From contig CAJNDT010000988.1 of assembly GCA_905221615.1 (NCBI GenBank), forward strand, positions 25,001 to 89,000: a stretch of 64,000 nucleotides of DNA, read 5' to 3'. The notes beneath the pieces were generated by a model. That model did no database searches and was not told the origin of the DNA. It saw nothing but the letters and a program-made list of their open reading frames with translations. The stretch is from Symbiodinium sp. CCMP2592 (Eukaryota > Sar > Dinophyceae > Suessiales > Symbiodiniaceae). Below, piece by piece: positions 34,601 to 55,246 of the stretch (position 1 is its first letter; each line of letters starts with the position of its first letter). The position numbers and the translations under genes are program-made.

Positions 34601-37600
34601 CAGGACATAGATCCATCTGACATAGAGACGGAGCCGTCTGGCGAAGTCTTCAAGTCAGCAGAACATGAAGCTATTGATGCTATAGGAGACAAAAGACTCG
34701 AAGAACTAGACGAAGAGCTAGGTCTACGTGCAGCACCGCCTCCTTCTGAACCAAAGGTCACTGGGAAAGATCGGCGATCGCCCCGCGAAGTCGGTCCAAC
34801 CGGTAGACTCATCCCCGAAGGAGACATCGAAGAACCTGGAGAGATCATTAAGATCTTGAAAGAAAAGAGGTTGGCTCCTGAGGAGATTGAACATTGGAGT
34901 ACGGGGAAGAAAGGGGACGGCATTGTATATCTCACTGATGATGGTGAAGCCTGCAAGATCGATAAAAGGGGAGTTCCATACAAGATCCGAAGCGACGGTC
35001 GACGAACCCTTCCTACACGGCGACCTATCCATTCCTATTCTCCGGAAGCATGGAAGAAAATGAGCGAAGCGGAGAAGAAGGCAGCGTACAAGAAAGAAAA
35101 GCGAGACAAAGCTCGAGTTGCCAAGAAGGACCGGAAGAAGGCTGTGATAGGAAAGAAGATAGTCACCAAGATTTTGGACAACATGATCTTTCCCAAGATT
35201 GTTCCATGTGAAGAAATTGATCTGCAACTCAACGTGTCCATTGACGACGACGATGGATGGTCCTGGGCACAGTCCTATGTGGATCAATACACACAAGAGC
35301 AATTCTTGTCAGACGTCGTGCCGGCCGTTCCGGCGCATATGGTCATGGATGATAACTGGATTCCGTCTATGCCGTGTACGACTTCTCACAGAAACGTACA
35401 TCGGGAAAAGAATCGTGCAGGAGGATCATGCTTCAATGCCATGGTCACTCGACCCGTCACACGCAAAGAGATGGTCAACAATCCCAAGGCCATGGAAGCT
35501 TTCATGAAAGAATGGAAGGGATTGTGGGACCAAGAGGTGTTTGATTTCTCAACTACGCGTGAATATGACGACGTCGTCGCTGAGGCAAAGAAGAAAGGTG
35601 AGAAAGTACATATGGCGCGAGTACATGGACTGATATACGAGAAAAACTATCAGCTCAAAGAGGACGATCCTGCCAGGAAGTTCAAAGGGCGAGGTGTATT
35701 ACTTGGTGATCAGGTCAAAGATCAAAATATGGAAGCCGCGTTGTTTCAGGATTTGGGGAATTCCCCGGCTACGTTTGACGCCTCACGGTGGGCAGATTAT
35801 TACGGATGCCTTCCTGGCAACGATGTCCAGATGGCGGATGCTATCCAAGCATACATTCAGGCGAGACTATCGGGCACTCCATGTTGGGTTGAACTGCCTG
35901 CTGAAGCCTGGTATCCATCTGCGAAAAGGCATAAATTCCGTAGACCTGTGTGTCGCCTGATCAAAGCCCTATATGGACATCCTGATGCAGGAACCATGTG
36001 GGAACAACATTGCCATACCGCGGTACAGAAAGTAGGATTCAAGCCGATTGGCGACGAATGGCCATCATTGTATTTCCACCCGCAGATGAAGCTCTTACTT
36101 GTCATCTACGTGGATGATCTCAAGATGGCAGGGCCCAAAGAGAACCTGCCCAAGGGTTGGGACATGCTGCGCCAAGAACTTCGATTGGAAGAGGAAACGC
36201 CACTAGGTTTGTATCTGGGTTGTCGCATCTCCAAGGGCGAGGCAACGTTGCATGACAAAACGAAGGTGCAGACCGTTACCTACGACATGGAGACGTACCT
36301 GGACATGACAGTCAAGAAGTACTGCGACGTGACTGGGTTCGATCCGACAAAATTCAAGACGGTACCATCGCCGAGTCCGGCTGAGGAGACTAAGAATCAC
36401 CCAGCTCGCGCTCCGGCACAGTCAGGTAAAAGCCATCGATGCACGTGGTGTGGACACACCATGCCTGTTGATAAGGATGGTCGGCTTGTTCCGCCTCCAC
36501 CTATTCCCAAGGCGCCAGAGGAAGAGGAGATCAACGAGGCTAATCGCGGTGCACTTGCTCCGCAGGCAGCAAGCATTCTCATGAAATTGCTTTATGCCGC
36601 GCGCATTTGCCGCTTTGATCTTCTGCGCAGTATCAACAATCTCGCGCGCAAGATCACGAAATGGACCAAGAAGGAGGATGCTCTTCTTCATCATCTCATG
36701 GCCTATGTGCACCAGTCCAAACATCACATGATGATTGGATGGGTCGGGAACTCCTTGGAGGACTCGTCCATCGGGCTGTTTGCAGATGCGGACTATGCAG
36801 GTTGTGGAGAAAGTTTGAAATCTACCTCCGGTGCTCACTTGCACATTCAAGGTTCTCACACAAGATTTCCCTTGGCGGGACTTAGCAAAAGGCAGGGGTG
36901 CTTGAGTCATTCCACACCTGAGGCCGAGATTGTCGCGGCCGACTTTGCCATGTCACGTCTTGGATTGCCTGCTATCACGTTGTGGCAGCAGCTTGGGGGG
37001 CAAGACCCCAACTTCGTCTTCTACGACGACAACCAGACCATGATCGGGGTGATTCGCACGGGCAAGAATCCGACTATGCGTCATTTGGAACGTACCCACG
37101 GCATCTGCATTGGATGGATGCATTCTATCTTTCAGGAAGGTTACGTTTCTCTTGCCTATGAGGTCACTGCCAAGATGTCAGCGGACATACACACCAAGTC
37201 GTTCAAGGATTCTGTGTCCTGGACACATGCGTGTCAGCTCATCAACATTTTTCCGCCGGCCCTCATTGGCTCCCAAGAGATTATGGATCTGATGCGCCCT
37301 ACTCATACACAAAGCACGGATGAGAAGGGCCAACAGCATTACTCGTTCAAGAGCGAGGTGCCTTGTTTTCCTTACACGCAGACGCCGATCCTCCCTCAGG
37401 TGTTGTATCGCGCTGGATTGTCGAGTAAGGAAGGCTTGCAAGAACATGACAGTGTGGACCCCATCCTGGTTGTCAAGTTCCCGCGCATGCTGCGGGGGCC
37501 GCCTTCCGCGTTGCCGCCTGGTCGCTACCTTCGGTCGACTTGGATTCTTCGTGAAGGGCAGTGGCACCAAATGGAGGACCGTGCTGCTATCCTTGATCAA

Positions 37601-38131
37601 CCGGGCAAGTTCGACCGCTATGTGGAGCGTGCTGTGTTTCAGTACCATCCGGTACGGGGGCATTTGCGCCCAGCCGCTATTGCGGACGTCCTTGCGCCGC
37701 CGTTTTTGCCTCCTCCTGAACCGCCTTTGGGCCAGTCTTATGTGCGCGCCCTGCCCGCCAAATGGCGAGCGGTGGTTGTCACACTGGCGCGTGCCATCCA
37801 TGGGGGGTACCAGGGCTTTACATTACCTCTTTGTTTCAACGGCCAGTCCAAAAGTCAAGCCTCCCAATTCGGCTATGACCAATGGTCGTCAGTGTACGAG
37901 GATGTATGGCATGATGCGGCTGAACAGAAAAGGGAATATCAAGGGTATGATGGAGCAATTGTGCCTCACGTGGTCAACTTCGCCGAAAACAAACCCAAGG
38001 AGGGCCTGGTGATCCAATTCCTCGACCACGATGGAGGGTTGGTCCATACTTACAAGAATCCTTACAGCCGTTGGAAATACCGTATCACTATCAAAGATGC
38101 TCCAAAGGCAGTGACGGTGTGGACATTGTAG
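28685..38131 (+). CDS. Giant element copy 1 ORF1: Gag-Pol (3148 codons before frameshift)
   Basis: First in-frame ATG, 64 bases after LTR1. Domains by residue: basic Ser/Arg-rich N-terminus 1-180; long predicted coiled coil about 182-455; acidic linker; capsid-like Gag about 770-1020; two CCCH zinc fingers at 1094-1113 (CX8CX5CX3H) and 1140-1158 (CX8CX4CX3H) in place of a zinc knuckle; protease DTG with Asp 1388; integrase about 1620-1800 with a shortened HX3H-CX2C (HLCTH...CESC) and the catalytic acids in TFDFLD, YSDEAPEF and NNSLAER; reverse transcriptase with NDVQMADAIQAYIQA and YVDD at 2475-2478; RNase H with DADYAG, STPEAEIVAAD, DNQ, RHLERTHGI and SADIHTK (about 2698-2840). Integrase before RT makes it Copia-type. 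A single missing G at 38128 creates TAG at 38129-38131; copy 2 reads through here. Confidence 0.95.
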   Translation: MNSGSSQDTTMTFGADVAAPAVGESTADDTVVQSVDSSTEDDKGQSSALAIAKAVPKVKAKSLPRASTPSRPTSTGSRTGKAPERRAEASGFQAPRTTSRAKDKGVKTLEKKSRPSSSRSSSARSRTSATRGRDKSMTWNRMVTNQPRDADDLDMTLDTIPARGDASSVTTPAIADGPNAYQELTISQQLEASNLAQQMYYRSQMQEYEGVVQTLMDKIKEMQQEDEGSGIRIEELERQRDHACLAMRHINNVNQEMKRDYEAALFRMDEQNSAQQRQAHAVAEELAQQLHVFRTEAATNFVQLEARAQGDGELMAREYERLTHELHEHARENLFLRSNTASSEQALQAMQERFHLVKNQELRAVNEIQGLAGNSAAIDQERLRLRERLGEEEEYRKMAVRRMQDAEDRLHQNEDHARRALPTLHDELSELRKTLKAQEDLQARTRSELEAARNSNYHGGVTRPSSMPMSSRTTESGWEHVGKEVVPAFSVGGEVRSPEIRSPSQVSPVAKEKFAFSESDKDKNLAMDGIPFTGGNFFTGRIKGEVNKSYSTPIVADAMPEHYVPGISSPAHARSTPSAATLFGIPSGFHGQSDAAAVRDRQLRELLEDRGMLGSKSTASASSSRPVGVDGITASTKGNDLIGPPVAYDDSIHEARRRQIEKEVAERYEEKIADLRSEVLKAQKAEQRLRADRDEWRLFAETIQEDNGDDDGDEAGDENGEGEHDEGTGTGYDPPDPPDDDDDKKRSGGGKLDPDPDPHARDPDGDADPEVTEVRISRREADKVTVPPWPTLTHLNNWRSVCTANVLGASADPNHEDWMLWLAPAFNPFPDVEALNDSGHKKFKSVDVKLGIAMVAMLRAGGDKSADLYLEVNRKANDYISRPEGKIIKGRQIIAMMYESFRTHDRLDMIITLEYLVKLQYQGDNKLHTFKQTWLEVLGRMRPEDIPSKTALRDCLYSKIKDSPAMKMELGMHYEHLPYNHEDRSYDNLMKIIDRTIMRRREQSNLTQTQIGLRQMLEGKDLLAAPAKVPEKPTPNAAPSAKVKASPTKPDKATPVLPQSKAKSHAKTKPKPKKKTRSESADNRGDKSKKQIRCKFHFTDAGCRNGDKCPFSHSKKTPERPFTPRTRTPSPSGGGGNRICYSFKNTGSCSRENCPFKHEAAATPAPEPKAKAKAKSEAKAAPAKPNAKAKALPAAPAIRLCRRWNPSAPAIWKRSSRQDEEESDCPSVDSDADSDCSTDDESSGPTTSTRKEIKRNVTFADDVKFISSCPRRSKKDKDRKVKYVDMEALVNNEDRAVNLEFAKHKARLRAQIMRDMVDDDDDQCGDRVSFVRIPGTSRVEEVSFYDGEDSIVERELDAAHSKRIINQGVFKCMVQPVILKKKIKFLMDTGCGHDLISQKKIEKHSLETLVTPEPISFQTANGITDTDLVSNFQTESFEEPINAYVLDDTPSVLSIGKRCMNFNYGFVWPPGREPFMINPQGKRISLFVNGDIPYIRAGSSKSLVHDDPEAKAITEIFKGVLTAGDVDVSVAAAAEAAPSEIEAEEEGDDHERPPDPEPQEPPIEEVPESEAGRPPDDDEGKGVGEIPLDGDDEVIIDVEGDGAPSRKARVGTLKAEAKTLAHLCTHRYRNPYCESCIRAKMKHLRTQRGAFQRVIKHWGDLVTFDFLDMRRAAEAGIGLDDGAREVLVIRDIATKMIAAIPTASRNTDEVVMAIRRLMGRRKIHMAYSDEAPEFDSAMAQLKIVIDHSLPGKPSNNSLAERSNQEVINTVAASMLHAGLPAQYWSFALNCVMQNLNIEDVEGDGDSAWKRMTGKDFEGKAIPLGAKVFFKPTDTRPKTYGNKFDPKGIPGIFAGYIITAGQGWSKKYRVWDMKEFANANLSMDASVPRKLMRPYETEVIYFPEEITFPLKAEYERMNSTIEGLRDNVDLAGKEIKDVDDGDDGPPGGNGGNGDDDDQDGLLPPPDPGEDPDLQDIDPSDIETEPSGEVFKSAEHEAIDAIGDKRLEELDEELGLRAAPPPSEPKVTGKDRRSPREVGPTGRLIPEGDIEEPGEIIKILKEKRLAPEEIEHWSTGKKGDGIVYLTDDGEACKIDKRGVPYKIRSDGRRTLPTRRPIHSYSPEAWKKMSEAEKKAAYKKEKRDKARVAKKDRKKAVIGKKIVTKILDNMIFPKIVPCEEIDLQLNVSIDDDDGWSWAQSYVDQYTQEQFLSDVVPAVPAHMVMDDNWIPSMPCTTSHRNVHREKNRAGGSCFNAMVTRPVTRKEMVNNPKAMEAFMKEWKGLWDQEVFDFSTTREYDDVVAEAKKKGEKVHMARVHGLIYEKNYQLKEDDPARKFKGRGVLLGDQVKDQNMEAALFQDLGNSPATFDASRWADYYGCLPGNDVQMADAIQAYIQARLSGTPCWVELPAEAWYPSAKRHKFRRPVCRLIKALYGHPDAGTMWEQHCHTAVQKVGFKPIGDEWPSLYFHPQMKLLLVIYVDDLKMAGPKENLPKGWDMLRQELRLEEETPLGLYLGCRISKGEATLHDKTKVQTVTYDMETYLDMTVKKYCDVTGFDPTKFKTVPSPSPAEETKNHPARAPAQSGKSHRCTWCGHTMPVDKDGRLVPPPPIPKAPEEEEINEANRGALAPQAASILMKLLYAARICRFDLLRSINNLARKITKWTKKEDALLHHLMAYVHQSKHHMMIGWVGNSLEDSSIGLFADADYAGCGESLKSTSGAHLHIQGSHTRFPLAGLSKRQGCLSHSTPEAEIVAADFAMSRLGLPAITLWQQLGGQDPNFVFYDDNQTMIGVIRTGKNPTMRHLERTHGICIGWMHSIFQEGYVSLAYEVTAKMSADIHTKSFKDSVSWTHACQLINIFPPALIGSQEIMDLMRPTHTQSTDEKGQQHYSFKSEVPCFPYTQTPILPQVLYRAGLSSKEGLQEHDSVDPILVVKFPRMLRGPPSALPPGRYLRSTWILREGQWHQMEDRAAILDQPGKFDRYVERAVFQYHPVRGHLRPAAIADVLAPPFLPPPEPPLGQSYVRALPAKWRAVVVTLARAIHGGYQGFTLPLCFNGQSKSQASQFGYDQWSSVYEDVWHDAAEQKREYQGYDGAIVPHVVNFAENKPKEGLVIQFLDHDGGLVHTYKNPYSRWKYRITIKDAPKAVTVWTL

Positions 38132-39603: not shown

Positions 39604-39714
39604 GGTCTGACCCGACGGATCGGGGAAGGGTGCCTCTTACAGAGCACCCGGAACCGTGAAGTCGCATAGGGGTAGGTACTTCTCTCCTACGGAGGAAGGA
39701 CCGAATCCCGAGCC
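39604..39714 (+). promoter_or_regulatory. 111-bp ORF1-ORF2 spacer with hairpin
   Basis: Contains a perfect 6-bp stem, GGGTGC (39628-39633) and GCACCC (39644-39649), with a 10-base loop. The spacer is the same length and carries the same hairpin in copy 2 (55247-55357). ORF2 must be reached by a spliced or trans-spliced mRNA, an internal promoter, or internal initiation; the spacer is where such a signal would lie. I see no clear splice acceptor that I could single out. Confidence 0.5.
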
Positions 39715-42510
39715 ATGGGTGAAAGCTACAATGCCTACGAGCTGGCCTTCGAAGGAGTGGACCATGAAGAAGTTTTCCCTTCTGGTGGGATGATGCGGAC
39801 GTTCCTGAAGTTCCACAAGTTTCTGCAGATGTATTCTGAGGACTCGTCGCAGAGCGTTTCGCTCCCACCGAAGATTACGAAAGACAAAGTGGTCGACAAT
39901 GATCTCATTCGCACATGGGCAGCTTTCAAAGCACCTCCTTTGGTCTTGCTGTTCACGTGCGCAAATCTGTCGCCAGGAGGGGATCTTTCCATTCGAGTTC
40001 GAGAAATCCTCAAGGCTTGCTTGTTCGCCGCCCCGGAGGAGTACATGGACAAACCCTATGGGGAGATCCTCGCCATGGTCATCAAGTTTGGTGGAGGTCT
40101 CAAACACATTGTTGCTGATTACGGAGGGAAGTTTCATGCCATCACAAGATTTATGGTGGATGAGGAAGTGATCCGCGATGATGCAAAGTTGGCTGTGGTT
40201 GAACTGGAACATGAAAGAAAACAAGTTCGGTTCGACTTGAACACTGCAACCAGGAACATCGTCAATGCGGACGTGTACTACAATCTCGCCGTTCTCATCA
40301 ATTCCGTGGAGACGCCCTATCAGGCCGTGACAGACACGAGAATTCAACAATGGTATACGGTGAATCAGGACTACTACCACAAGTTGCCTATGTCAGGCAG
40401 AGCACCTGACCAATCCGACCTGTTGGGAGAGCCTACGTTATGTAGGGTGTGCAAGCTGATGTACATGTTCGCAAAGCACACTGGGTATGGGCTTCGGACC
40501 TACAACCAGGAATGTGCAGCGGGCAACGATGGCGCTACGCCAATCAACGTTCACCAGCTGGCTTTGATGATGCGCACATTGCCTCAAGGCATGGGACATC
40601 CGCTCGCCTTTGCGATGAACTCACTCCAGGCGTTCAGTGTTTGTCTCCACGTGCTTCATTCCTATGTATCATGGATTGATCCACAAACTGGACTCCCGCA
40701 TTATCGATGGTCTAATGACGTGCTCCCCGATTCCGACTACACCACGTATGCTTTCCTCAAGTACCATGTGGATGCCGTATGTGCAGCTCAGGACAAGAAC
40801 GGTTTCCAATTGCCGGATGCGTTCCGTGGCTACACCTGGAATCAATGCGGAGTTGAATCTGGGTACGTGGTCGACTGCTCTACCAAACGCGCCACATTGG
40901 GCATATGGGAAGCGGAATTCCAACAGATGAGGGCACCAAATCCGCTTATGCAAGATGATGGCCTATTTCCGCCCAACCTTCAACGGCATCCTAGCTGGGT
41001 ATACTCAACGGGGAGAGTTGCGATGCCTACGGCAAGCAACCTCGAACCGGAAGGAATCGTGCACCCTGAGCATGGAAGAACGCCGGAACAATCGCAAGGA
41101 TCCGCTGCCGGACCTCGAGCCACCCCTAGCCACGGACCAAAGAGGGCAAGGACGGACGAGGCAACGGCATCGGCGTCGTCATCTTCTGCGGCACCTCCTC
41201 CACAACAACCGCCTTCGCAACCGGAAGAGGAACCATCGCAACCGACATGGGAGGAAGCTCCAATCCCTGCTGGCGCTCAGGAAAGTTGGTACCATTATGT
41301 CAACATCGATGAGAAGGGCTGTCGTTCGATCTTGCTGACGACGACCCGTGATCACGACGAGTACCCACCTGCCATTGATGAGACGCCAAAGTTTGTGGCC
41401 AACCACGACGTGGGGACCACACCGATTCAGCATTACGTCAGAAGACTGGTGACCTATTTGGCAAGGATTCGTTCCGTCTCACAAAATGATGACAAGGGTC
41501 TCAACCTGAAGGTCTACGTGAAGCTGAGTACAAAGGTGTGGCTACGGATGTATTCACGGCTGTACCATGCATTGGCATTGGTATCATGCGTGCATCTTCC
41601 TTCTCCTCCAATGCTTACCTCGGCAGTGATGATCGAGGCAGATCGCGATCTTGTCGACAACGATGACATTCCGGAAGAAGCAAGGATCAACACCATGAAC
41701 ACGCTGAACGGATTTCGCAATAGTTTGGGTATGGGTGGCAAACCTGATGCCGCGACTATGCGCTCTCAATGCACAATCCTCGTCCAGGACTTTGACATGG
41801 TTGCAAGGACCAGGGGATCAACGCACACGTTGAGAGAGAACCTCGGCATGCATGGGTGGAGCGAGATCTACATTGTGAGCCCGTCGATCACCACAGGTGC
41901 CAACTACAACTTCCAAGTCACAAAAGGATCGTTGGAATCTGTGAATGCGACATTGGATGGCTTGACTGAAGAGCAGCTTGCAACCGTCACACTGCATTAC
42001 CATCTGTCTCTCCAGGCAATCCTCATCGAGAACATGTCTTTTCCGATGAGTGAAGTCGGAGACGGAGCAGCGATCCGTACTGACTTGCAGCGACAGCTCA
42101 AGGTGACGTACGTTGACCCTATCATCGCAGCAGGGAAGCGTACCACGCGCCCTCCAATTGTCAACATCAACCACGACTTACGGTTCGTTGGAGCAGCTAG
42201 CAATTACCTTCAGCACAAAGCTTCTCTGTTCAACGGTTTCCACGCGCTGGGAATGTATATTGAACTGGAGTTGCGAGCCCGAGCATGCGTGGTGATTCAT
42301 GGATCTTCGTTTTGGTCAAGAATGTACAGCCAGATGAAACATGCGTCATCAGGCGTGCATACACTGTCAGCCGAAAAGGTGCCAGCACCGGACTCTCGGG
42401 TCAGGTTCAAATTGGGCTACGCTATCTATGAGAAGCAGCTGTTCTGCGAGAAGATGGTATCCACGTGCTTTGTTGAGGCATCGAAAATTCGCTCATGGGA
42501 CGAAACTGTC
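39715..42510 (+). CDS. Giant element copy 1 ORF2, N-terminal third
   Basis: Starts at ATG 39715 (MGESYNAYELAFEGVDHEE). I do not recognise a family. The first ~430 residues are globular, with a Cys pair (LCRVCKLMYMF). They are followed by a disordered Pro/Ser/Gln-rich linker (about 450-520) and another globular stretch. No signal peptide or membrane helix is visible, which argues against an envelope protein although the gene is in the env position. A one-base C deletion after 42510, seen by comparison with copy 2, shifts the frame; the nominal stop at 42697-42699 is in the wrong phase. Confidence 0.85.
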
Positions 42511-45186
42511 GCGCCGACTCAGTCGCTCACCCGTCGCTTGTCGAGATTTGGGAGGACAAGAGTGAAGTCAAGACGTCCACCAGGATTTCGCAGACATGGT
42601 TCACGGGAGAACAGCAGCAACAGATCAGGTCGGGTGCCCAGGGTGACACGGTCGCTGAATCGTCCGCAGTCACCTGGCAGGACTTTGACATCGCCATGAC
42701 CGTCCCCGAAGCCTATTACGACAACAGGCACTACTGGTTCCGGATCGACACCTACGCGACCCCGAACACCGGCTATGTCAAAGGGAGAACGTTCTATTGC
42801 CCTGGATGTGACGCAATGAAGTTGGCTGAGTGCTACGCACAGGCCTTCTTCAAGCCGACTGGAAACGGGTATCCTGGACACTGCATTGGGTGCGCGCATA
42901 CTTCAGCCTTGAAGATGCAGCATCAAGTCAGCTCCTTCAATGACTTAGTCGCGTCCCAGAAGTACACCTTGGCTTGCGCAAAGCACCTTTATGACCTGAG
43001 GCTTCAATTTGTGGACCCTCGCATGGACATCAAGGAGTTCCTCAAAGCTTGTGCGGAAGTGGTCTACGAAGACATTGGCAAGACGGTTTCTCACTACGGT
43101 GGTCTCCGAATCACAGCCAGTCAGGCCATCGAGTACGCGGCATGGGGAAAGGCCAAACAGTTGGCATGGGACAGAGGATACGATTCCGAAGGCAAGACAT
43201 GCTACATCTGCTACTACGATGCCGGGAACTGCGCTTATGCTGGTTCCATGAGAATGCTTTTGACTCCGGAGGAGCGCCAAGAATGCTACAGAGGGTCAGC
43301 CTTGCCCAAGGAGGAACTCCTGGGTGACACGGTGGAGCTGGCACTCGGGCTTCTTACAATTGCAATGAGACACCCAAGTCATTTTCCAAATTGGGGTGGC
43401 CTTGAGGGGGCAAATGCGTGCGTGAGGGGGATCGAAAGATCATTCTTCCGCTACGCGTCGGCCGAAGCTATCGAGCTGATCACGGTTGACTCCCCGCGCA
43501 AGAGGACACCGCCCAAGAAGAATGAACAAGTCGCTGAGATCGTCAACAACATGTCCGCTGACCTCGTGATTGACGTCACAGTGATCGTCGATGGCGATAT
43601 CTACCCCGTAGAGATTGCAAGGACCGACGAGACACAGGCCGCTGACAACGTCACGGACGATCCAGGGGTCTCTGTTGCTCCACCAATACCTGCACAGGAT
43701 GTAGATGTGGATGCACAACCCGAAGAAGAACAAGGTGCAGAAGACCCTGATCCCAGGCAGATGATTCGTGAAGGATTTGTCGCGCAGCTTCAGGACTATG
43801 TGGGAGTACTCGCTCAGGGCGAAATGTCGGTCGGGAGCGATAGACTCACGTTCTGTATCGCTTGTGGCAGTGATCAACACCATCTGTCCAATTGCACGGA
43901 AAATGCTGCGACCCGGGATCTGATACTTCGAAGCATCCAGATCATCAAGGAAAGCCTTCTTCGATATCCACGTCGCATACCTCCACAACAAGATGAGCCA
44001 ATGGACGTTGACACCACGGACCATGTGAGTGTCGCATCCTCGGACCGACGACCCAAGGCCAAAGCCCGACCGCGACGCGGAGGCGAAGCCGTACGGAGTG
44101 ATGTGGTCTTGATCCGTTACGAGAACAAACACAATCTCTGCACGGATGTGGAGAACCGTCGGGGCTTACATGATGCTTGTGGTGTGCCGCTGCAGGACAT
44201 GGGACCAGAGAACAGTCAGCGGGTGGTGGACCTCATTGAGCAGCTTTCGGACCATCGCGACCGACGCCTACCTCAACGAGGAGACCGTCCTAGCTTTGCA
44301 TATGATGATACTATTCAGGGCTACACCAATGCAGGCTACGAATGCATCGGCGGCGGAAGGCCAATCCGATGCGGGATTCTCGACCTGATCCCAACCAAGG
44401 GTGCAAGCTTCATCCACAATCGATGGGACATCGTGAACGAAGTTGTCCTTCGCAACATCACCCATCATCGAAGAAGGAACGCGGATTGGGCGCTATCATG
44501 CATTCAATCTGACCTGCGTCACAGAATCGCCAGGCACCCAGGCTCGGAATGGCTTGACAACAGGTGCCAGGTGGCATTCAGCAGCGTCATTCGATGTGAT
44601 GAAGGAGGGTGGGTGCTGATCGAGGATTTGGTGAGGCATGAGCAACTATGGACCCATGACAGCAGACGCATCACAGAAGCGGTCTCAAGGACCGATGAAC
44701 AACAGAGGAAGAGAGTGTACAATGAAAGACTTCAGCTATTGTTCCAAGGGAACATGCTCGCAGCCACGAGACGCCACAAGGCCAAGATTCGGCTGCAGTT
44801 CCTGGGAGTGAGAGTGAAGGACCCCGGCACGGAGACTCTTGGATCCGCAGGCTCGAACATGTTAGTATCGATTCCTGACCAGATCACAGAGATCCAGAAC
44901 AATGATCGTTGCCGGCACAGCCAGAGGTACCTGAACGTTTGCAACGGCTGGGTGAAGCCATGGGCAGTTCGGGCTACAAGTGGTCACTCTGCGCACTCAG
45001 ATCCGCAGAACAATTTGCTTCAGTTGGACAAGAACAGGTTCGCAATATCTCCATCTATGACCCTCTTGCAACGTCTTGGAGGCGCGTTCCACGCTACGGC
45101 ATGCCGCAACTTGGATTCCATTGTCACGCAAGGCATCATGCCTGGTTCGGAGGACCCCGACGGGGACTTCGACCATCGGCGCCAAT
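42511..45186 (+). CDS. Giant element copy 1 ORF2, middle part with CCHC knuckle and Tpt1-like domain
   Basis: Continues ORF2 in the next frame (ORF2 residues about 933-1825). It has a Cys cluster FYCPGCDAMKL...GHCIGCAHT (two CX2C pairs about 35 residues apart), CYICYYDAGNC, an acidic linker, and a perfect CX2CX4HX4C zinc knuckle CIACGSDQHHLSNC (43854-43895). From about 44515 comes a domain I assign to the Tpt1/KptA RNA 2'-phosphotransferase family: DLRHRIA, GGWVLIEDLV, AVRATSGHS, NRFAIS and FHATACRNLDSIVTQGI. The LRH Arg-His pair and the Arg of RATSGHS match essential residues of yeast Tpt1. A one-base T deletion at 45187 breaks the domain in this copy. Confidence 0.8.
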
Positions 45187-47203
45187 TCGAGGCAACCAAG
45201 GCGGCAGACTCCACAGCTATTGGGGGGTGTTTGCGCCGTTCGATCACCGGAACGCAACGACCAAGATGCGAGTACATGGACGAGACGCCAAGCACATGCC
45301 ATTGGCGGTCCTTCATGTCCCGTCGCAGGACCTTGCACGAGAGGATGTACGTATCACAGACAGCGGCATCATGATCGTTGGCCGAACGATACCTTTCCAT
45401 TTCGTCAAGGAGGTATGGTTTTGCGTCCCTGATCCTCGAGATACACACTCTTTCGCTCTGGTGGAAACGATCTACGATGAAAGGTTGGAGAAAGAGCTGG
45501 TGTTGGACTACAATGCATCACCGTTGCTTCCCGAGTTCGAGAGATACCGAACGCCAAGCAAGATCATGGAATTGCTTTGCGAGATGCCTCCTGGACCCCA
45601 CGACACAAGCAAGGAGCAGATCATTCGAGACCTCACGACTGTCCTGGAGTCCCACAGGGAGAACACGGTTCGGCATCATTACATGGACAAAGGGATCAAG
45701 TTTGTCATCAAGAATTGGCGACCCGAAGACCTACGCAGAGACGAGGATGGAAGGAGAATGAGGGTGTGCCCGGCATGCTACAACATCGTTCCAGCATGCT
45801 TCTCCCGATGCACGTCCTGCTGGTCACAATTCGTTTCTTGCGGATACTACCAAGGTTCTCCACAACGGGAGACTCCTACGGAGATCCCCAGTGACTTCAT
45901 TGCTCAAACAATGGAAGCTGCGGCAGCAGCAGTGCCTGAGGCGACCGTCGAGGAGCAGGAAGCCATGGAGATAGAGACCGTTGCGGAACCTGAGGAAATC
46001 CCAGAACCATCTGTCATCGCGGAGGACGATCCAGAACAGGAACCTGATGAAGAAATGGACATAGAGCCAGGAGAGGACTTTGATGACGCCGTACCAGAAG
46101 CAATTGCACAGGAACGTCGTCCCGTCTTCGTTACCGGCCAGTCTTTGAACATCGATCCTGAGCTACAACTTGCACGTACCGCCATGCAGCCATCCTACTA
46201 CTCAGGGAAGCGAAATGCCCATTGCATTGACGCCAACATGGTCGCTCTTTCGTATATGGCTTTCGTGGTATGCAGAACCATCTACAAGGCTTGGTCAGGA
46301 TTCGCGAAGTGGGCTACTATGCCGTTGTTCCAGATGAAGGAGAATTTCGCACTTGGCCAACGCTATGATGTGCTGGGAAAGTGGGGATCTTTGGCTGTAG
46401 TGGACAGAGAGACGGGTGTGAGCAGGGATGTGACTGATGAGGAGATCATTCGCTTTGCCAAGGAGCCTGAGAACCTCAAGCAGTACGATCCCAACGGGAC
46501 TTACACTTTGAAGCGCTTCCGGACGAATCAGATGCTTTCGTTGCTTACACGGGGAGCCAACATGATGGGAATTGGCAGGCACAACTTCAACCCTACTACG
46601 TACTTGAAGAGCAACAGGGATGAAGATGTGAAGGCTATGCACTTCTGTTGCCTGAACGTCCTGTGCGAGGTGATTCCGATGGTGACAGTACACCAACAAT
46701 TCTCAGTGCTACGACCAACGCCAACTGGACCGGTGGACTTCCTGTACATCGACCCCGTCGGTATCCTGCTGACTCATGCCGATCATTCAGTCCAGACCAT
46801 TGGATTGCTGGTGGATCACAACGTGCAAATGCCTGCGCATTTCATGGACAGATTGGTCAGATCCAAGGCTGAGAGACAGCAAAATCCGACGACCAAACGT
46901 ACTGAAGCCCTACACCACATCTCGGCCGCTGACTATCTCCCTCCAGGTGGTACTTCCATCCTGGACACGCCTGTCACTACGGAGGAACGTGCAAGCGCTT
47001 CTTCGGCCAAGGGACCTTCAAAAGGGCGGGAGAGAACCGGAGGTGAACAGCATGGAGGCTGGAACGCCAACACCTACTATGACTACACCGCCGGCAAAGG
47101 CCGAAACAAAGGCAAGGACAAAGGAAAGCAAAGGGAACAGTATCCAGAGGAGAACCTCCGGCCCTGGGACCGCGATCCTGCGACCACGCGAAGATGGAGA
47201 TGA
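45187..47203 (+). CDS. Giant element copy 1 ORF2, C-terminal third
   Basis: Continues ORF2 after the T deletion. It begins with the rest of the Tpt1-like domain (RLHSYWGVF, at the position of the R-H-x-H strand of Tpt1, then PLAVLHV and VKEVWFCV). Next is a zinc-ribbon-like cluster VCPACYNIVPAC...RCTSCW (about 45764-45830), an acidic Glu/Asp-rich linker (about 45900-46110), and an unrecognised globular domain (about 46140-46920) with FALGQRYDVLGKWGSLAVVD. It ends in a basic, Gly/Lys-rich tail (GKGRNKGKDKGKQRE) that could bind nucleic acid. Stop at 47201-47203. The sequence from 45187 to about 45670 is unusually different from copy 2. Confidence 0.8.
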
Positions 47204-47467
47204 ATCAACGCTTGGTCTTCCTCGCCTATCAGTTCGTGACCTCTGAGCTTCGCCCATGGAGTGCCATCGCGAATGCTTCTTTCTTCGGTGACGCCTGATT
47301 CTTTTGCCATTTCAGGGGATCGTTACTGACGTAGATGAGTGTCACAACGTTTCTAATTGGGATGCAAAGCTCTGATTTTCAATGTCAACGTTGCGGCGGA
47401 ACATTTTCTGTTGTCCGATCGTGCCATCTTCCGGGTGAGCAGCGTCGGAGACGCAACTCATGGGGGG
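47204..47467 (+). other. Giant element copy 1 3' untranslated region with polypurine tract
   Basis: 264 bases from the ORF2 stop to LTR2, with no gene. The last bases before the LTR are ATGGGGGG (47460-47467), a G-run that fits a polypurine tract for plus-strand priming. Confidence 0.75.
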
Positions 47468-47655
47468 TGCGAACGGACTGCGATGCCTTGTCAAGTTCTA
47501 AGGTGTCACTATAAGAGCTGTGAGCAAGACCGTGTAAAGTGCAAGGGAAGGGGGCACGCTACGCGTCCCTCGACTCTAAGGGGGCACGCTACGCGTCCCT
47601 CGACTCTAGGAGTAAGCTTGTGGACGTGCTGCGCACACCGCATCGCTTCTCCTTA
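47468..47655 (+). repeat. LTR2 (middle LTR), first 188 bp, truncated by gap
   Basis: Matches LTR1 and LTR3 except for G at 47531, where both others have A. It is cut by the N run. It serves as 3' LTR of copy 1 and presumably 5' LTR of copy 2. There is no AGTTG duplication beside it. Confidence 0.92.
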
Positions 47656-47755
47656 NNNNNNNNNNNNNNNNNNNNNNNNNNNNNNNNNNNNNNNNNNNNN
47701 NNNNNNNNNNNNNNNNNNNNNNNNNNNNNNNNNNNNNNNNNNNNNNNNNNNNNNN
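47656..47755. other. Assembly gap (100 N)
   Basis: Exactly 100 N, a usual placeholder for a gap of unknown size. By collinearity with copy 1 (28331-32067) about 3.7 kb is missing: the rest of LTR2, the primer-binding site and the Gag half of ORF1 copy 2. Confidence 0.98.
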
Positions 47756-47756
47756 T

Positions 47757-49053
47757 CCAAGTCCGTCTGGAGGAGGAGGAAACAGGATATGCTACTCTTT
47801 CAAGAACACAGGCTCGTGCTCAAGAGAGAATTGTCCTTTCAAGCATGAGGCAGCAGCTACCCCAGCTCCGGAACCAAAGGCAAAAGCTAAAGCCAAATCC
47901 GAAGCAAAGGCAGCTCCAGCGAAGCCGAATGCCAAGGCCAAGGCGCTCCCTGCGGCACCCGCCATCAGATTGTGCCGAAGGTGGAATCCATCAGCCCCGT
48001 CTATATGGAAGCGATCTTCAAGACAAGATGAGGAGGAGTCAGATTGTCCATCCGTTGACAGCGACGCTGATTCGGATTGTTCAACAGACGACGAATCCTC
48101 GGGACCGACTATGTCGACCCGAAAAGAGATCAAGCGTAATGTGACATTCGCCGATGACGTGAAGTTCATTTCTTCGTGTCCTAGAAGATCGAAGAAGGAC
48201 AAGGATCGGAAGGTGAAGTACGTCGACATGGAAGAGCTTGTCAACAATGAGGATCGCGCCGTGAATTTGGAATTCGCCAAGCACAAAGCGAGATTGAGGG
48301 CACAGATCATGAGAGACATGGTTGACGACGATGATGATCAATGCGGAGATCGAGTTTCATTCGTACGAATCACAGGAACGTCTCGGGTGGAAGAAGTTTC
48401 CTTCTACGACGGTGAGGATTCCATCGTTGAGCGTGAACTCGATGCTGCGCACAGCAAACGGATCATCAATCAAGGTGTATTCAAATGCATGGTTCAACCA
48501 GTCATCCTCAAGAAGAAGATCAAATTTCTCATGGACACTGGGTGTGGCCATGACCTCATATCTCAGAAGAAGGTCGAGAAGCATAGTCTCGAGACACTCG
48601 TGACTCCAGAGCCCATATCATTTCAGACAGCAAATGGAATCACCGATACCGATCTCGTGTCGAATTTCCAGACTGAGTCGTTCGAGGAACCGATCAATGC
48701 TTATGTGTTGGATGACACACCGTCGGTGCTTTCCATAGGTAAGAGATGCATGAACTTCAACTACGGGTTTGTGTGGCCACCCGGAAGGGAACCATTCATG
48801 ATCAACCCGCAGGGCAAGAGAATATCTCTGTTCGTGAACGGTGACATCCCGTACGTTCGTGCCGGGAGTTCCAAGTCACTGGTTCATGATGATCCGGAGG
48901 CCAGAGCGATCACCGAAATCTTCAAGGGTGCGCTAACAGCGGGCAATGTTGACGTCAGCGTCGCAGCTGCCGCTGAAGCTGCACCGAGCGAGATTGAAGC
49001 AGAAGAAGAAGGTGACGATCACGAACGACCTCCTGATCCTGAACCCCAAGAAC
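47757..49053 (+). CDS. Giant element copy 2 ORF1, fragment: second CCCH finger to protease
   Basis: Emerges from the gap in frame at the position equal to copy 1 residue ~1129. It keeps the second CCCH finger (CYSFKNTGSCSRENCPFKH), the Lys/Ala/Pro-rich linker, the acidic Ser/Asp stretch, and protease with DTGCGHDLIS. A 46-base deletion relative to copy 1 falls between 49053 and 49054, in the acidic linker before integrase, and shifts the frame; the nominal stop is at 49107-49109. Protein sequence is nearly identical to copy 1. Confidence 0.88.
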
Positions 49054-49072
49054 GGACGACGAAGGAGCAGGA

Positions 49073-52000
49073 GTGGGTGAAGTTTCATTGGACGGTGACG
49101 ATGAGGTGATCATTGATGTGGAAGGCGACGGTGCGCCGAGCCGCAAGGCCAGAGTCGGAAAACTGAAAGCCGAAGCCAAGACGTTGGCACATCTGTGTAC
49201 TCATCGCTACCGCAATCCATATTGCGAATCGTGCATACGCGCGAAGATGAAGCACTTGCGGACTCAACGAGGTGCATTTCAACGTGTGATCAAACACTGG
49301 GGGGATCTTGTGACGTTCGACTTCCTCGATATGCGCAAGGCCGCCGAAGCGGGTATCGGACTCGATGATGGAGCACGTGAAGTTCTAGTCATCAGAGACA
49401 TCGCCACCAAAATGATCGCAGCAATTCCCACGGCTTCAAGGAATACTGACGAGGTCGTCATGGCCATCAGACGCCTAATGGGGAGACGCAAGATTCATAT
49501 GGCGTATAGTGATGAAGCACCAGAGTTCGATTCAGCTATGGCGCAGTTGAAGATCGTGATAGATCATTCCCTTCCAGGGAAACCCAGTAACAATTCACTC
49601 GCTGAACGATCAAATCAAGAAGTGATCAACACAGTCGCAGCATCCATGCTACACGCCGGATTACCCGCCCAATACTGGTCCTTTGCGCTGAATTGCGTGA
49701 TGCAGAACCTCAACATTGAAGACGTGGAGGGCGATGGTGATTCAGCATGGAAACGAATGACTGGAAAGGACTTCGAGGGAAAAGCCATACCCTTTGGGGC
49801 CAAAGTCTTCTTCAAGCCGACGGATACAAGGCCGAAGACATATGGCAACAAGTTCGATCCAAAGGGGATCCCAGGCATTTTTGCCGGATACATCATCACT
49901 GCTGGTCAAGGATGGTCCAAGAAGTATCGCGTGTGGGACATGAAGGAATTTGCCAATGCGAACTTGTCGATGGACGCATCTGTTCCCAGGAAGTTGATGA
50001 GACCGTACGAGACAGAAGTTATCTACTTCCCAGAGGAGATAACATTTCCCCTGAAAGCCGAGTACGAGAGGATGAACTCAACCATTGAGGGACTCAGGGA
50101 CAACGTTGACCTCGCTGGCAAGGAGATAAAAGACGTCGATGACGGGGACGACGGTCCGCCTGGAGGAAATGGTGGCAACGGGGATGATGATGATCAAGAT
50201 GGTCTTCTTCCTCCACCGGATCCCGGAGAAGATCCTGACTTACAGGACATAGATCCATCTGACATAGAGACGGAGCCGTCTGGCGAAGTCTTCAAGTCAG
50301 TAGAACATGAAGCTATTGATGCTATAGGAGACAAAAGACTCGAAGAACTAGACGAAGAGCTAGGTCTACGTGCAGCACCGCCTCCTTCTGAACCAAAGGT
50401 CACTGGGAAAGATCGGCGATCGCCCCGCGAAGTCGGTCCAACCGGTAGACTCATCCCCGAAGGAGACATCGAAGAACCTGGAGAGATCATTAAGATCTTG
50501 AAAGAAAAGAGGTTGGCTCCTGAGGAGATTGAACATTGGAGTACGGGGAAGAAAGGGGACGGCATTGTATATCTCACTGATGATGGTGAAGCCTGCAAGA
50601 TCGATACAAGGGGAGTTCCATACAAGATCCGAAGCGACGGTCGACGAACCCTTCCTACACGGCGACCTATCCATTCCTATTCTCCGGAAGCATGGAAGAA
50701 AATGAGCGAAGCGGAGAAGAAGGCAGCGTACAAGAAAGAAAAGCGAGACAAAGCTCGAGTTGCCAAGAAAGACCGGAAGAAGGCTGTGATAGGAAAGAAG
50801 ATAGTCACCAAGATTTTGGACAACATGATCTTTCCCAAGATTGTTCCATGTGAAGAAATTGATCTGCAACTCAACGTGTCCATTGACGACGACGATGGAT
50901 GGTCCTGGGCACAGTCCTATGTGGATCAATACACACAAGAGCAATTCTTGTCAGATGTCGTGCCGGCCGTTCCGGCGCATATGGTCATGGATGATAACTG
51001 GATTCCGTCTATGCCGTGTACGACTTCTCACAGAAACGTACATCGGGAAAAGAATCGTGCAGGAGGATCATGCTTCAATGCCATGGTCACTCGACCCGTC
51101 ACACGCAAGGAGATGGTCAACAACCCCAAGGCCATGGAAGCTTTCATGAAAGAATGGAAGGGATTGTGGGACCAAGAGGTGTTTGATTTCTCAACTACGC
51201 GTGAATATGACGACGTCGTCGCTGAGGCAAAGAAGAAAGGTGAGAAAGTACATATGGCGCGAGTACATGGACTGATATACGAGAAAAACTATCAGCTCAA
51301 AGAGGACGATCCTGCCAGGAAGTTCAAAGGGCGAGGTGTATTACTCGGTGATCAGGTCAAAGATCAAAATATGGAAGCCGCGTTGTTTCAGGATTTGGGG
51401 AATTCCCCGGCTACGTTTGACGCCTCACGGTGGGCAGATTATTACGGATGCCTTCCTGGCAACGATGTCCAGATGGCGGATGCTATCCAAGCATACATTC
51501 AGGCGAGACTATCGGGCACTCCATGTTGGGTTGAACTGCCTGATGAAGCCTGGCATCCATCTGCGAAAAGGCATAAATTCCGTAGACCTGTGTGTCGCCT
51601 GATCAAAGCCCTATATGGACATCCTGATGCAGGAACCATGTGGGAACAACATTGCCATACCGCGGTACAGAAAGTAGGATTCAAGCCGATTGGCGACGAA
51701 TGGCCATCATTGTATTTCCACCCGCAGATGAAGCTCTTACTTGTCATCTACGTGGATGATCTCAAGATGGCAGGGCCCAAAGAGAACCTGCCCAAGGGTT
51801 GGGACATGCTGCGCCAAGAACTTCGATTGGAAGAGGAAACGCCACTAGGTTTGTATCTGGGTTGTCGCATCTCCAAGGGCGAGGCAACGTTGCATGACAA
51901 AACGAAGGTGCAGACCGTTACCTACGACATGGAGACGTACCTGGACATGACAGTCAAGAAGTACTGCGACGTGACTGGGTTCGATCCGACAAAATTCAAG

Positions 52001-55000
52001 ACGGTACCATCGCCGAGTCCGGCTGAGGAGACTAAGAATCACCCAGCTCGCGCTCCGGCACAGTCAGGTAAAAGCCATCGATGCACGTGGTGTGGACACA
52101 CCATGCCTGTTGATAAGGATGGTCGGCTTGTTCCGCCTCCACCTATTCCCAAGGCGCCAGAGGAAGAGGAGATCAACGAGGCTAATCGCGGTGCACTTGC
52201 TCCGCAGGCAGCAAGCATTCTCATGAAATTGCTTTATGCCGCGCGCATTTGCCGCTTTGATCTTCTGCGCAGTATCAACAATCTCGCGCGCAAGATCACG
52301 AAATGGACCAAGAAGGAGGATGCTCTTCTTCATCATCTCATGGCCTATGTGCACCAGTCCAAACATCACATGATGATTGGATGGGTCGGGAACTCCTTGG
52401 AGGACTCGTCCATCGGGCTGTTTGCAGATGCGGACTATGCAGGTTGTGGAGAAAGTTTGAAATCTACCTCCGGTGCTCACTTGCACATTCAAGGTTCTCA
52501 CACAAGATTTCCCTTGGCGGGACTTAGCAAAAGGCAGGGGTGCTTGAGTCATTCCACACCTGAGGCCGAGATTGTCGCGGCCGACTTTGCCATGTCACGT
52601 CTTGGATTGCCTGCTATCACGTTGTGGCAGCAGCTTGGGGGGCAAGACCCCAACTTCGTCTTCTACGACGACAACCAGACCATGATCGGGGTGATTCGCA
52701 CGGGCAAGAATCCGACTATGCGTCACTTGGAACGTACCCACGGCATCTGCATTGGATGGATGCATTCTATCTTTCAGGAAGGTTACGTTTCTCTTGCCTA
52801 TGAGGTCACTGCCAAGATGTCAGCGGACATACACACCAAGTCGTTCAAGGATTCTGTGTCCTGGACACACGCGTGTCAGCTCATCAACATTTTTCCGCCG
52901 GCCCTCATTGGCTCCCAAGAGATTATGGATCTGATGCGCCCTACTCATACACAAAGCACGGATGAGAAGGGCCAACAGCATTACTCGTTCAAGAGCGAGG
53001 TGCCTTGTTTTCCTTACACGCAGACGCCGATCCTCCCTCAGGTGTTGTATCGCGCTGGATTGTCGAGTAAGGAAGGCTTGCAAGAACATGACAGTGTGGA
53101 CCCCATCCTGGTTGTCAAGTTCCCGCGCATGCTGCGGGGGCCGCCTTCCGCGTTGCCGCCTGGTCGCTACCTTCGGTCGACTTGGATTCTTCGTGAAGGG
53201 CAGTGGCACCAAATGGAGGACCGTGCTGCTATCCTTGATCAACCGGGCAAGTTCGACCGCTATGTGGAGCGTGCTGTGTTTCAGTACCATCCGGTACGGG
53301 GGCATTTGCGCCCAGCCGCTATTGCGGACGTCCTTGCGCCGCCGTTTTTGCCTCCTCCTGAACCGCCTTTGGGCCAGTCTTATGTGCGCGCCCTGCCCGC
53401 CAAATGGCGAGCGGTGGTTGTCACACTGGCGCGTGCCATCCATGGGGGGTACCAGGGCTTTACATTACCTCTTTGTTTCAACGGCCAGTCCAAAAGTCAA
53501 GCCTCCCAATTCGGCTATGACCAATGGTCGTCAGTGTACGAGGATGTATGGCATGATGCGGCTGAACAGAAAAGGGAATATCAAGGGTATGATGGAGCAA
53601 TTGTGCCTCACGTGGTCAACTTCGCCGAAAACAAACCCAAGGAGGGCCTGGTGATCCAATTCCTCGACCACGATGGAGGGTTGGTCCATACTTACAAAAA
53701 TCCTTACAGCCGTTGGAAATACCGTATCACTATCAAAGATGCTCCAAAGGCAGTGACGGTGTGGACATTGGTAGGAGTCGATGAGGAGAACTGGTGGAAT
53801 GAGTATGCTCCTGGCAAGGACTGCATTGCGCAGCATGCTCCCGATTCTCACTACGACCCTGGGTTGCAAGTAAATGTTCTGAGTATGGGGCGAGAAGTTG
53901 ACGACGCCATGTGTGCTTACCTCTTTGATGTGGTGGAAGCGAGGAAAAACAACCCTAACTCCGTGATCTTCATTGGCGCAGGGGTGTTGGGCAAGAATTC
54001 GTGGCTGAGTCGGAAAATCGCTGACAACCCTGAAAGGGCCAAATTGCGGACAGACTACCCATGGGGGGAGGTCGTCCAAAGAATTGCGCGCAGAGCGGCA
54101 TCGTGGGGGTTCCAAATCATCATCGAAGTACCTCCTCGAGTACAAGTCCAGGAAACCAAGCAGTACAAGGGACTTCAGGAAGATGCCATGTGGAAGAGCA
54201 TCAAGATCCAAGGATGCACTCACGGGCAACGTTATATCTTTCGGGATCCTGTACCTCCCGGAACCGCCGTTGAGCTCGGCTACTGCAAGGATGAATGGGA
54301 GTACATTGCCGCAAACGTCGCGTTGCATCCTAAGTCGTCTGACGTGTGCTCGTCCAAACATTTGCACATGACCGATTCGGACGCTAAGGATCGATCTGAT
54401 AAATGCGAGTTGACTAGCCAAATCTCCAGGAGATTGCTTAAGGCCTTGAATTTTCAGGCAACGGGCGATGGGAGATTGGTAGCAATGCCGTCGAAGGCTG
54501 GTGGACGAAAGCCTGACCGCATGATTGTTGACCTCTGTGGCTTGGGCAATGGCTACGCCGTGCCTAAGTCCACTAAGGGATGCGCTCGCATAACTTGCAA
54601 GGAGCTAATTGGCTCTAAGGCCGATGAGGACAGCCTTATCGGTGCGATGAAGGACGCGTGCCGGAATGACCTGCGCAAACCTGTGCTATTCGTGGCATCG
54701 CTTTTGCGATCAGGTGTTGGTCCTGGAAGTAGTGAAGGGGCTTGCGTGGGGGGTGAGAAACGTTCCGGTGGGAAGTACAAGGTTTTCAGAAGTGTCTTGA
54801 AATCTCTCAAACGCCTGCTGAAGAAGTGTGCGGAATTTTCCGACGTCTATTTTTCGCTTGACATGCCTTCTTCATGTTCATGTTGGTCTTGGCCAGAGTT
54901 GCATGCTCTTGTTTCAAGTGGCAAGGTGACGAAGGTTAAGATTGATGACCATGTTGGTGCTGGTGGCGATGGTGGTGGACGCAGGATCATGTTCTCTAAC

Positions 55001-55246
55001 ATGCCTGAAGCGGATCGTTTGATGGTGAGAATGGATGATTGCTTGGACCATGAATCGAAGAGCAGTTTGTCGCAGCGCATTGATGTGTCATGGCGGTCGA
55101 TTGCGAGGAATGTTCGCAGCCTTGTTCGAGCTCATGTCAGTGTCAGTCATGATGCACATGAATCTGAGGACATTGCATGGCAGCAACGTCAGTGTATAGA
55201 CGCTGATGAAGGGGCTATAACACAGCCCCAACTAAGGAACAACTAA
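49073..55246 (+). CDS. Giant element copy 2 ORF1: integrase-RT-RNase H-extension (2057 codons)
   Basis: Frame after the 46-base deletion, beginning MGEVSLDGDDEV. It contains integrase (HLCTH...CESC, TFDFLD, YSDEAPEF, NNSLAER), reverse transcriptase (YVDD) and RNase H (DADYAG, SADIHTK). Unlike copy 1, it carries the ~490-residue C-terminal extension fused without interruption (VWTLVGVDEENWW across the position of the copy 1 stop). This copy therefore proves that ORF1 ends at the stop equivalent to 39603 in copy 1. As it stands it lacks Gag and protease in frame, so it cannot act alone. Confidence 0.93.
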   Translation: MGEVSLDGDDEVIIDVEGDGAPSRKARVGKLKAEAKTLAHLCTHRYRNPYCESCIRAKMKHLRTQRGAFQRVIKHWGDLVTFDFLDMRKAAEAGIGLDDGAREVLVIRDIATKMIAAIPTASRNTDEVVMAIRRLMGRRKIHMAYSDEAPEFDSAMAQLKIVIDHSLPGKPSNNSLAERSNQEVINTVAASMLHAGLPAQYWSFALNCVMQNLNIEDVEGDGDSAWKRMTGKDFEGKAIPFGAKVFFKPTDTRPKTYGNKFDPKGIPGIFAGYIITAGQGWSKKYRVWDMKEFANANLSMDASVPRKLMRPYETEVIYFPEEITFPLKAEYERMNSTIEGLRDNVDLAGKEIKDVDDGDDGPPGGNGGNGDDDDQDGLLPPPDPGEDPDLQDIDPSDIETEPSGEVFKSVEHEAIDAIGDKRLEELDEELGLRAAPPPSEPKVTGKDRRSPREVGPTGRLIPEGDIEEPGEIIKILKEKRLAPEEIEHWSTGKKGDGIVYLTDDGEACKIDTRGVPYKIRSDGRRTLPTRRPIHSYSPEAWKKMSEAEKKAAYKKEKRDKARVAKKDRKKAVIGKKIVTKILDNMIFPKIVPCEEIDLQLNVSIDDDDGWSWAQSYVDQYTQEQFLSDVVPAVPAHMVMDDNWIPSMPCTTSHRNVHREKNRAGGSCFNAMVTRPVTRKEMVNNPKAMEAFMKEWKGLWDQEVFDFSTTREYDDVVAEAKKKGEKVHMARVHGLIYEKNYQLKEDDPARKFKGRGVLLGDQVKDQNMEAALFQDLGNSPATFDASRWADYYGCLPGNDVQMADAIQAYIQARLSGTPCWVELPDEAWHPSAKRHKFRRPVCRLIKALYGHPDAGTMWEQHCHTAVQKVGFKPIGDEWPSLYFHPQMKLLLVIYVDDLKMAGPKENLPKGWDMLRQELRLEEETPLGLYLGCRISKGEATLHDKTKVQTVTYDMETYLDMTVKKYCDVTGFDPTKFKTVPSPSPAEETKNHPARAPAQSGKSHRCTWCGHTMPVDKDGRLVPPPPIPKAPEEEEINEANRGALAPQAASILMKLLYAARICRFDLLRSINNLARKITKWTKKEDALLHHLMAYVHQSKHHMMIGWVGNSLEDSSIGLFADADYAGCGESLKSTSGAHLHIQGSHTRFPLAGLSKRQGCLSHSTPEAEIVAADFAMSRLGLPAITLWQQLGGQDPNFVFYDDNQTMIGVIRTGKNPTMRHLERTHGICIGWMHSIFQEGYVSLAYEVTAKMSADIHTKSFKDSVSWTHACQLINIFPPALIGSQEIMDLMRPTHTQSTDEKGQQHYSFKSEVPCFPYTQTPILPQVLYRAGLSSKEGLQEHDSVDPILVVKFPRMLRGPPSALPPGRYLRSTWILREGQWHQMEDRAAILDQPGKFDRYVERAVFQYHPVRGHLRPAAIADVLAPPFLPPPEPPLGQSYVRALPAKWRAVVVTLARAIHGGYQGFTLPLCFNGQSKSQASQFGYDQWSSVYEDVWHDAAEQKREYQGYDGAIVPHVVNFAENKPKEGLVIQFLDHDGGLVHTYKNPYSRWKYRITIKDAPKAVTVWTLVGVDEENWWNEYAPGKDCIAQHAPDSHYDPGLQVNVLSMGREVDDAMCAYLFDVVEARKNNPNSVIFIGAGVLGKNSWLSRKIADNPERAKLRTDYPWGEVVQRIARRAASWGFQIIIEVPPRVQVQETKQYKGLQEDAMWKSIKIQGCTHGQRYIFRDPVPPGTAVELGYCKDEWEYIAANVALHPKSSDVCSSKHLHMTDSDAKDRSDKCELTSQISRRLLKALNFQATGDGRLVAMPSKAGGRKPDRMIVDLCGLGNGYAVPKSTKGCARITCKELIGSKADEDSLIGAMKDACRNDLRKPVLFVASLLRSGVGPGSSEGACVGGEKRSGGKYKVFRSVLKSLKRLLKKCAEFSDVYFSLDMPSSCSCWSWPELHALVSSGKVTKVKIDDHVGAGGDGGGRRIMFSNMPEADRLMVRMDDCLDHESKSSLSQRIDVSWRSIARNVRSLVRAHVSVSHDAHESEDIAWQQRQCIDADEGAITQPQLRNN

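Follow-up and report, generated by a model that had tools for sequence, protein, structure and literature searches.

In a stretch of 64,000 nucleotides from Symbiodinium sp. CCMP2592 (contig CAJNDT010000988.1, positions 25,001–89,000 of the forward strand; hereafter "the window," whose own numbering is used throughout), two copies of a Ty1/copia-type long terminal repeat (LTR) retrotransposon carry, in a second open reading frame (ORF2), a segment resembling the RNA 2′-phosphotransferase Tpt1/KptA, an enzyme that ordinarily takes a residual phosphate off spliced or repaired RNA. Judging from the sequence and a structural model, this segment is almost certainly a divergent, two-lobe Tpt1-fold domain that belongs to the element as a permanent part of its ORF2 polyprotein. 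Conservation of the active site, together with purifying selection, suggests that the domain is quite probably catalytically competent, using NAD+ at a conserved Arg-His-Arg-Arg site and acting on an RNA-borne phosphate. Taken as a whole, a Tpt1/KptA-type domain of the element, presumably active on RNA 2′-phosphate, is the best explanation of the sequence data and a reasonably likely one. The original prediction had placed such a domain inside a retrotransposon ORF: the link to the element holds, while the location is a second ORF, downstream of pol, and not pol itself.

Sequence Motifs and Family Membership

All coding regions, LTRs and polypurine tracts of the element described here lie on the forward strand. 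The copy 2 domain as modelled covers 346 amino acids (60123–61160) and is supported by Pfam, the model and fold matches. Its five motifs, DLRHRIA (starting at 60156), GGWVLIEDL (60249), VRATSGHS (60612), FHATACRNLDSIVTQGI (60732), and RLHSYWG (60852), are all in frame 57171–62840, within its residues 996–1285. In copy 1 (domain at 44478–45514), the same motifs start at 44511, 44604, 44967, 45087, and 45206, and the order that had been claimed is borne out in both copies. The copy 1 domain is interrupted, as predicted, by a frameshift between FHAT…QGI and RLHSYWG, the latter standing in a different frame from the preceding four motifs. Copy 2 had been described as unbroken; this is true of the domain, which lies in one open frame, but not of ORF2, which is frameshifted further upstream (55319–57310 // 57171–62840).

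A significant match to the Pfam family PTS_2-RNA (PF01885; cut-off, 26 bits), on which the Tpt1 assignment depended, was obtained with both the whole 1889-amino-acid frame of copy 2 (26.5 bits, E = 7.5e-6) and the 346-amino-acid domain alone (32.4 bits, E = 1.2e-7), and PTS_2-RNA is the single Pfam-A family reported in that frame. It is also matched by 10 of 11 trimmed pieces of the family at E ≤ 10. The element family is at the limit of Pfam's reach, and the window copy is among its members nearest to the Pfam family. The NCBIfam equivalog for RNA 2′-phosphotransferase (PRK00819) gives 18.4 bits versus a cut-off of 239, which does not place the domain in this narrow prokaryotic group.

The predicted structure of the copy 2 domain consists of a winged-helix RNA lobe joined to an ADP-ribosyltransferase-type NAD lobe, in line with the fold that had been expected, and Tpt1/KptA structures are its top matches, at 12–22% identity to the solved proteins. 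An archaeal KptA-DNA-NAD+ complex (9ld6) is found among these matches. Within the RNA lobe, a long insertion is predicted in the wing hairpin, at model residues 113–157 (60459–60593).

Active-Site Residues

In Clostridium thermocellum Tpt1, the catalytic tetrad consists of Arg18, His19, Arg68, and Arg121, and His101 and Thr103 of an HGT motif contact the NAD+ ribose (PMC6333775). The counterpart motifs are LRH, KKRF, HGT, and RHYVHL in Escherichia coli KptA (their correspondence to the published numbering is by our own alignment) and LRH, KIRLQF, HAT, and RLHSYWG in the element domain. Residue counts come from 77 domain rows representing 73 relatives (P0001–P0010 and P0132–P0194); many rows are fragments, and the denominators are the rows having a residue at the position concerned. 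The Arg-His pair of DLRHRIA (60162–60167), equivalent to Arg18-His19, is kept in 57/57 and 55/57 rows, respectively. The proposed equivalent of Arg68 (KxRF) is the Arg in KIRLQF (60435–60437; 64/66 rows), assigned by global profile alignment and by the order of strands in the model (strand 106–112). H-A-T (60735–60743), equivalent to the NAD+-binding HGT motif, has His in 38/38 and Thr in 37/37 rows, with Ala as the middle residue in 32/38 and Gly in none among the rows listed. The Arg of RLHSYWG (60852–60854; 30/32 rows) is the proposed equivalent of Arg121, assigned by local profile alignment. Altogether, the six catalytic/NAD positions are all present in 20 of the 22 complete rows. The Arg-His pair and a second essential Arg had been sought among the five listed motifs; the third Arg of the tetrad most likely resides in KIRLQFLG (60429–60452), outside that list. 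VRATSGHS, considered as a holder of a tetrad Arg, was ruled out by the published tetrad residues.

Between the two copies, the ratio of non-synonymous to synonymous rates (dN/dS) is 0.17 in the Tpt1-like domain (18 synonymous and 11 other changes) and 0.15 over 57300–62690 (52 synonymous and 27 other changes).

Several observations weigh against the Tpt1 reading. When P0001–P0010 were scanned whole, PTS_2-RNA was reported at E ≤ 1 in two of the ten (P0004 and P0010), both below the cut-off, and in none of the other eight; ten further relatives gave six matches at E ≤ 1, one above the cut-off (P0152, 27.4 bits) and five below, with none at this threshold in P0133, P0143, P0161, and P0164. Profile searches of the Protein Data Bank (PDB) yielded weak Tpt1 matches (best E = 0.033 and 0.058), and a single-sequence phmmer search of the PDB found no Tpt1, its four matches all being MAP kinase 11 at E of about 0.5. 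Foldseek gives low TM-scores (mouse TRPT1, 0.30/0.47), and the modelled RNA lobe has a much enlarged wing, so the substrate may differ. As to the active site, 2 of the 22 complete rows deviate in the tetrad, P0132 lacking the third Arg and P0152 having Lys at the fourth. The third and fourth Arg assignments rest on one alignment each: the global alignment by hhalign pairs LRH, KIRLQF (with KKRF), and HAT with the corresponding motifs and does not do so for the fourth Arg, while the local one places RLHSYWG onto RHYVHLS with the third Arg out of its reach, and a low-threshold local hhalign run misplaces the N-lobe. The identification of the KIRLQF Arg as the third tetrad residue is probable rather than settled, because a weak HMMER alignment to the PDB instead sets KKRY against helix residues close to a different conserved Arg (64/68 rows). 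Furthermore, the site aligned with the NAD+ phosphate cage (Arg139/Arg140 in the C. thermocellum enzyme) lacks a conserved pair of basic residues; an Arg conserved in 24/25 rows a few residues before this site may or may not substitute for one of them.

A possible partial loss of the phosphate cage and the low identity to solved Tpt1s are what would be expected if catalysis had been lost and the domain had a structural or RNA-binding function within the ORF2 protein. The tetrad and H-x-T are near-invariant in relatives down to ~30% identity, which a structural role leaves unexplained, and we regard such a loss as improbable.

Linkage to the Element

Two protein searches returned 10 clusters with 275 member sequences and 63 clusters with 184, two of the clusters holding 80 and 166 sequences. 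Ten relatives (P0001–P0010; 1211–3161 amino acids) bear the domain at 30–77% identity, and P0001 (2490 amino acids) and P0008 (2459 amino acids) represent relatives of ORF2 as single predicted proteins of roughly ORF2 length. In Symbiodinium sp. KB8, one gene model (P0005) combines RVT_2 with a Tpt1-like domain, and in another (P0006) a segment resembling, by eye, the RNase H region of the window is fused to the domain in truncated form. The domain is linked to the retrotransposon because of these two gene models and of the anatomy of LTRs, target-site duplication, and polypurine tract described below. A scan of IMG/VR gave 23 pattern matches and no relative, and therefore no viral source exists in that collection at that sensitivity.

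A 100-N assembly gap within the array and the mosaic relation of the two copies (see below) might be taken to indicate an accidental association, either of a host gene beside a retrotransposon or through an assembly join. In both copies, however, pol precedes the domain and the polypurine tract/LTR follows it, all inside one 5-base duplication, and the ten relatives, from clusters of up to 166 members, carry it as well, with the same order in the two Symbiodinium gene models. An origin by assembly join was rejected on these grounds, and accidental association in general is highly improbable.

Organization of the Array

A single array fills the right half of the window, with two element copies between matching AGTTG target-site duplications at 28138–28142 and 63583–63587. 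It begins with a 5′ LTR of 478 bases (28143–28620) and ends with an identical 3′ LTR of 478 bases (63105–63582), both of the form TG…CA; 0 of 478 positions differ between them, and therefore the insertion is recent. A middle LTR is visible for 188 bases (47468–47655), adjoined by a GGGGGG polypurine tract (47462–47467) and followed by the assembly gap (47656–47755), and another G6 tract (63099–63104) is directly 5′ of the 3′ LTR. Comparison with copy 1 indicates that the gap conceals the remainder of the middle LTR and ~3.4 kb of 5′ coding sequence; with this estimate, one unit measures ~19.8 kb. In an alignment of 14,248 columns, counting gaps, the two internal copies show 137 differences, of which 79 cluster at 60500–62999 (vs. 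about 44855–47360). Set against identical LTRs, this cluster points to a mosaic composed of two element lineages, perhaps formed by template switching or gene conversion.

GGTTATCAGCCGTA comes after the 5′ LTR, at the position of a candidate tRNA primer-binding site, with no tRNA matched to it. Scans of the window with Rfam (gathering scores) and for tRNAs gave 0 matches each. The LTRs contain the 11-base TTTGGCTCAAG (28358–28368 and 63320–63330), identical to the 3′ terminus of the spliced leader of dinoflagellates; this candidate was dropped, as the window-wide count at two mismatches is 4 versus 6.3 expected, not above chance. Outside the array, a long repeat array with 37-base spacing occupies 24873–27047.

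Element domains were assigned by Pfam on copy 2, while RNase H and a coiled-coil-like gag stretch were judged by eye. ORF1 of copy 1 (28670–38131; 3153 codons from stop to stop) covers gag, protease, integrase, reverse transcriptase, RNase H, and a tail; its frame is interrupted at about 38.1 kb, beyond which the tail runs on in a different frame up to 39603. The broken ORF2 region of copy 1 (39676–47203) consists of three overlapping frames, 39676–42699, 42477–45374, and 44906–47203. In copy 2, the gag end and pol (47756–55246), with aspartyl protease, integrase/SH3, RVT_2, and the tail, occupy a pair of overlapping frames (one to 49109, the other 49043–55246), and ORF2 is divided into a first frame of 663 codons (55319–57310) and a second of 1889 codons holding the Tpt1-like domain; the ORF2 frames are broken in both copies. 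RVT_2 at about 51581–51877 (33.8 bits; cut-off, 31.6) is the sole domain of the copy 2 pol ORF above its Pfam cut-off, the integrase/SH3 segments preceding it scoring below theirs. The LTRs with TG…CA, target duplication, polypurine tract, and integrase ahead of an RVT_2-type reverse transcriptase together assign the element to Ty1/copia.

Elsewhere in the coding regions, the tail after RNase H closes with a segment (53300–55246, and the N-terminal parts of P0007 and P0009) in which methyltransferase-like motifs (EFCC…, ALPCTGG) are visible by eye in relatives and apparently degenerate in the window; this segment has no match in Pfam or NCBIfam scans and is no more than a lead. An ORF2 stretch at 57417–57830 (TILVQDFD…VNINHDLRF) appears SGNH-hydrolase-like by eye, with 20–29% identity in P0007 and no Pfam match. 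ORF2 residues 501–700 (58671–59270; GKAKQLAWDRG…YASAEAI) are 33–43% conserved in distant relatives, on a par with the Tpt1-like domain.

Possible Functions of the Domain

Inside the particle, the domain may naturally act on RNA of the element itself or on its tRNA primer; of the possible mechanisms we favor this one, though tentatively. Broken element RNA or tRNA primer would be resealed by a plant/fungal-type ligase, leaving a 2′-phosphate; the domain would remove this phosphate in the replication particle, and the cleaned RNA could then be translated and copied. Candidate origins of 2′-phosphates on element RNA are resealing after nuclease attack and a ligase-type splicing step. Removal of 2′-phosphate is favored because this activity is common to diverse homologues, according to published discussion. 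Evidence from yeast argues for caution here: in cells deleted for tpt1, primer extension yielded a product reaching beyond the junction, and Xrn1 was the enzyme that the 2′-phosphate stopped (PMC6456296). In our own reading of that report, 2′-phosphate is no absolute block to reverse transcription, and the simple version in which it blocks the reverse transcriptase of the element is thereby weakened.

Tpt1-like NAD+ chemistry might be kept for ADP-ribosylation as the main job, either of phosphorylated RNA or DNA ends, as a cap hiding the ends of element RNA or cDNA, or of host nucleic acid or protein in counter-defence. Human TRPT1 ADP-ribosylates 5′-phosphorylated RNA and DNA, depending on the same tetrad in the case of RNA, and a bacterial KptA does likewise on RNA (PMC6582358). 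The DNA-bound complex 9ld6 among the structural matches and the enlarged wing, which in the model suggests a changed substrate, also point in this direction. All four tetrad positions are kept; capping needs them too, so they do not discriminate between the two activities. No macrodomain or other ADP-ribose-handling domain was reported by Pfam in the copy 2 frames or in P0001–P0010, and we consider ADP-ribosylation as the main job unlikely.

Tpt1 is widespread in organisms without known 2′-phosphorylated RNA, and its role there is an open question (PMC6333775; PMC6582358); a retrotransposon whose active site has been kept over deep divergence provides one defined RNA, that of the element, in which to seek the substrate. 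More speculatively, and with rather low probability, there may be a whole dinoflagellate copia lineage with its own RNA-processing ORF2 polyprotein, whose Tpt1 would be active and rid the element's RNA of ligation scars. RNA cutting and resealing, by repair or by a tRNA-ligase-type splicing or trans-splicing step, would then be normal in the life cycle of the element or in its conflict with host RNases. The finding also draws attention to ORF2 itself, which is uncharacterised, about 2500 residues long, and has multiplied (the clusters of 80 and 166).

Comparison with Known Systems

The element domain has in common with Tpt1/KptA/TRPT1 (PF01885) the two-lobe fold, the proposed Arg-His-Arg-Arg tetrad, the H-x-T NAD+ motif, and the motif order. 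It differs in its length of ~320 residues versus 177–206 in solved chains, in the long insertion in the RNA-lobe wing, and in its place inside a polyprotein, as in P0001 and P0008. DarT and other ADP-ribosylating toxins match it from residue ~187 onward only and have no Tpt1-type RNA lobe; a stand-alone ADP-ribosyltransferase lobe of this type was ruled out by the extra Tpt1-type lobe and the tetrad.

With Ty1/copia retrotransposons, the element shares LTRs, the 5-base duplication, the polypurine tract, and the order of gag, protease, integrase, reverse transcriptase, and RNase H (the last by eye), whereas its ~19.8-kb unit, in which ~10 kb of mostly coding sequence separates an RNase H-end motif from the ORF2 end, sets it apart. 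A second copia-like element in the window (4354–12744, minus strand), has 241-base terminal direct repeats differing by one mismatch and a gag-pol-like frame of 2517 codons, in which inspection by eye shows a zinc-knuckle motif and no such ORF2 is seen next to it. As the original prediction had supposed, no Tpt1 within a retrotransposon was found in literature searches of open-licence papers.

A precedent in the same algal group is dinoflagellate retrotransposons with cytosine methyltransferases (DNMTs; de Mendoza 2018, PMC5890265), whose main text does not contain the terms Tpt1 and phosphotransferase. These are LINE-type and tyrosine-recombinase elements, Copia being described there as without any DNMT domain. 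They have likewise captured and kept a nucleic-acid-modifying enzyme, and the present element would extend the list of retrotransposon-captured enzymes to one of RNA-repair type.

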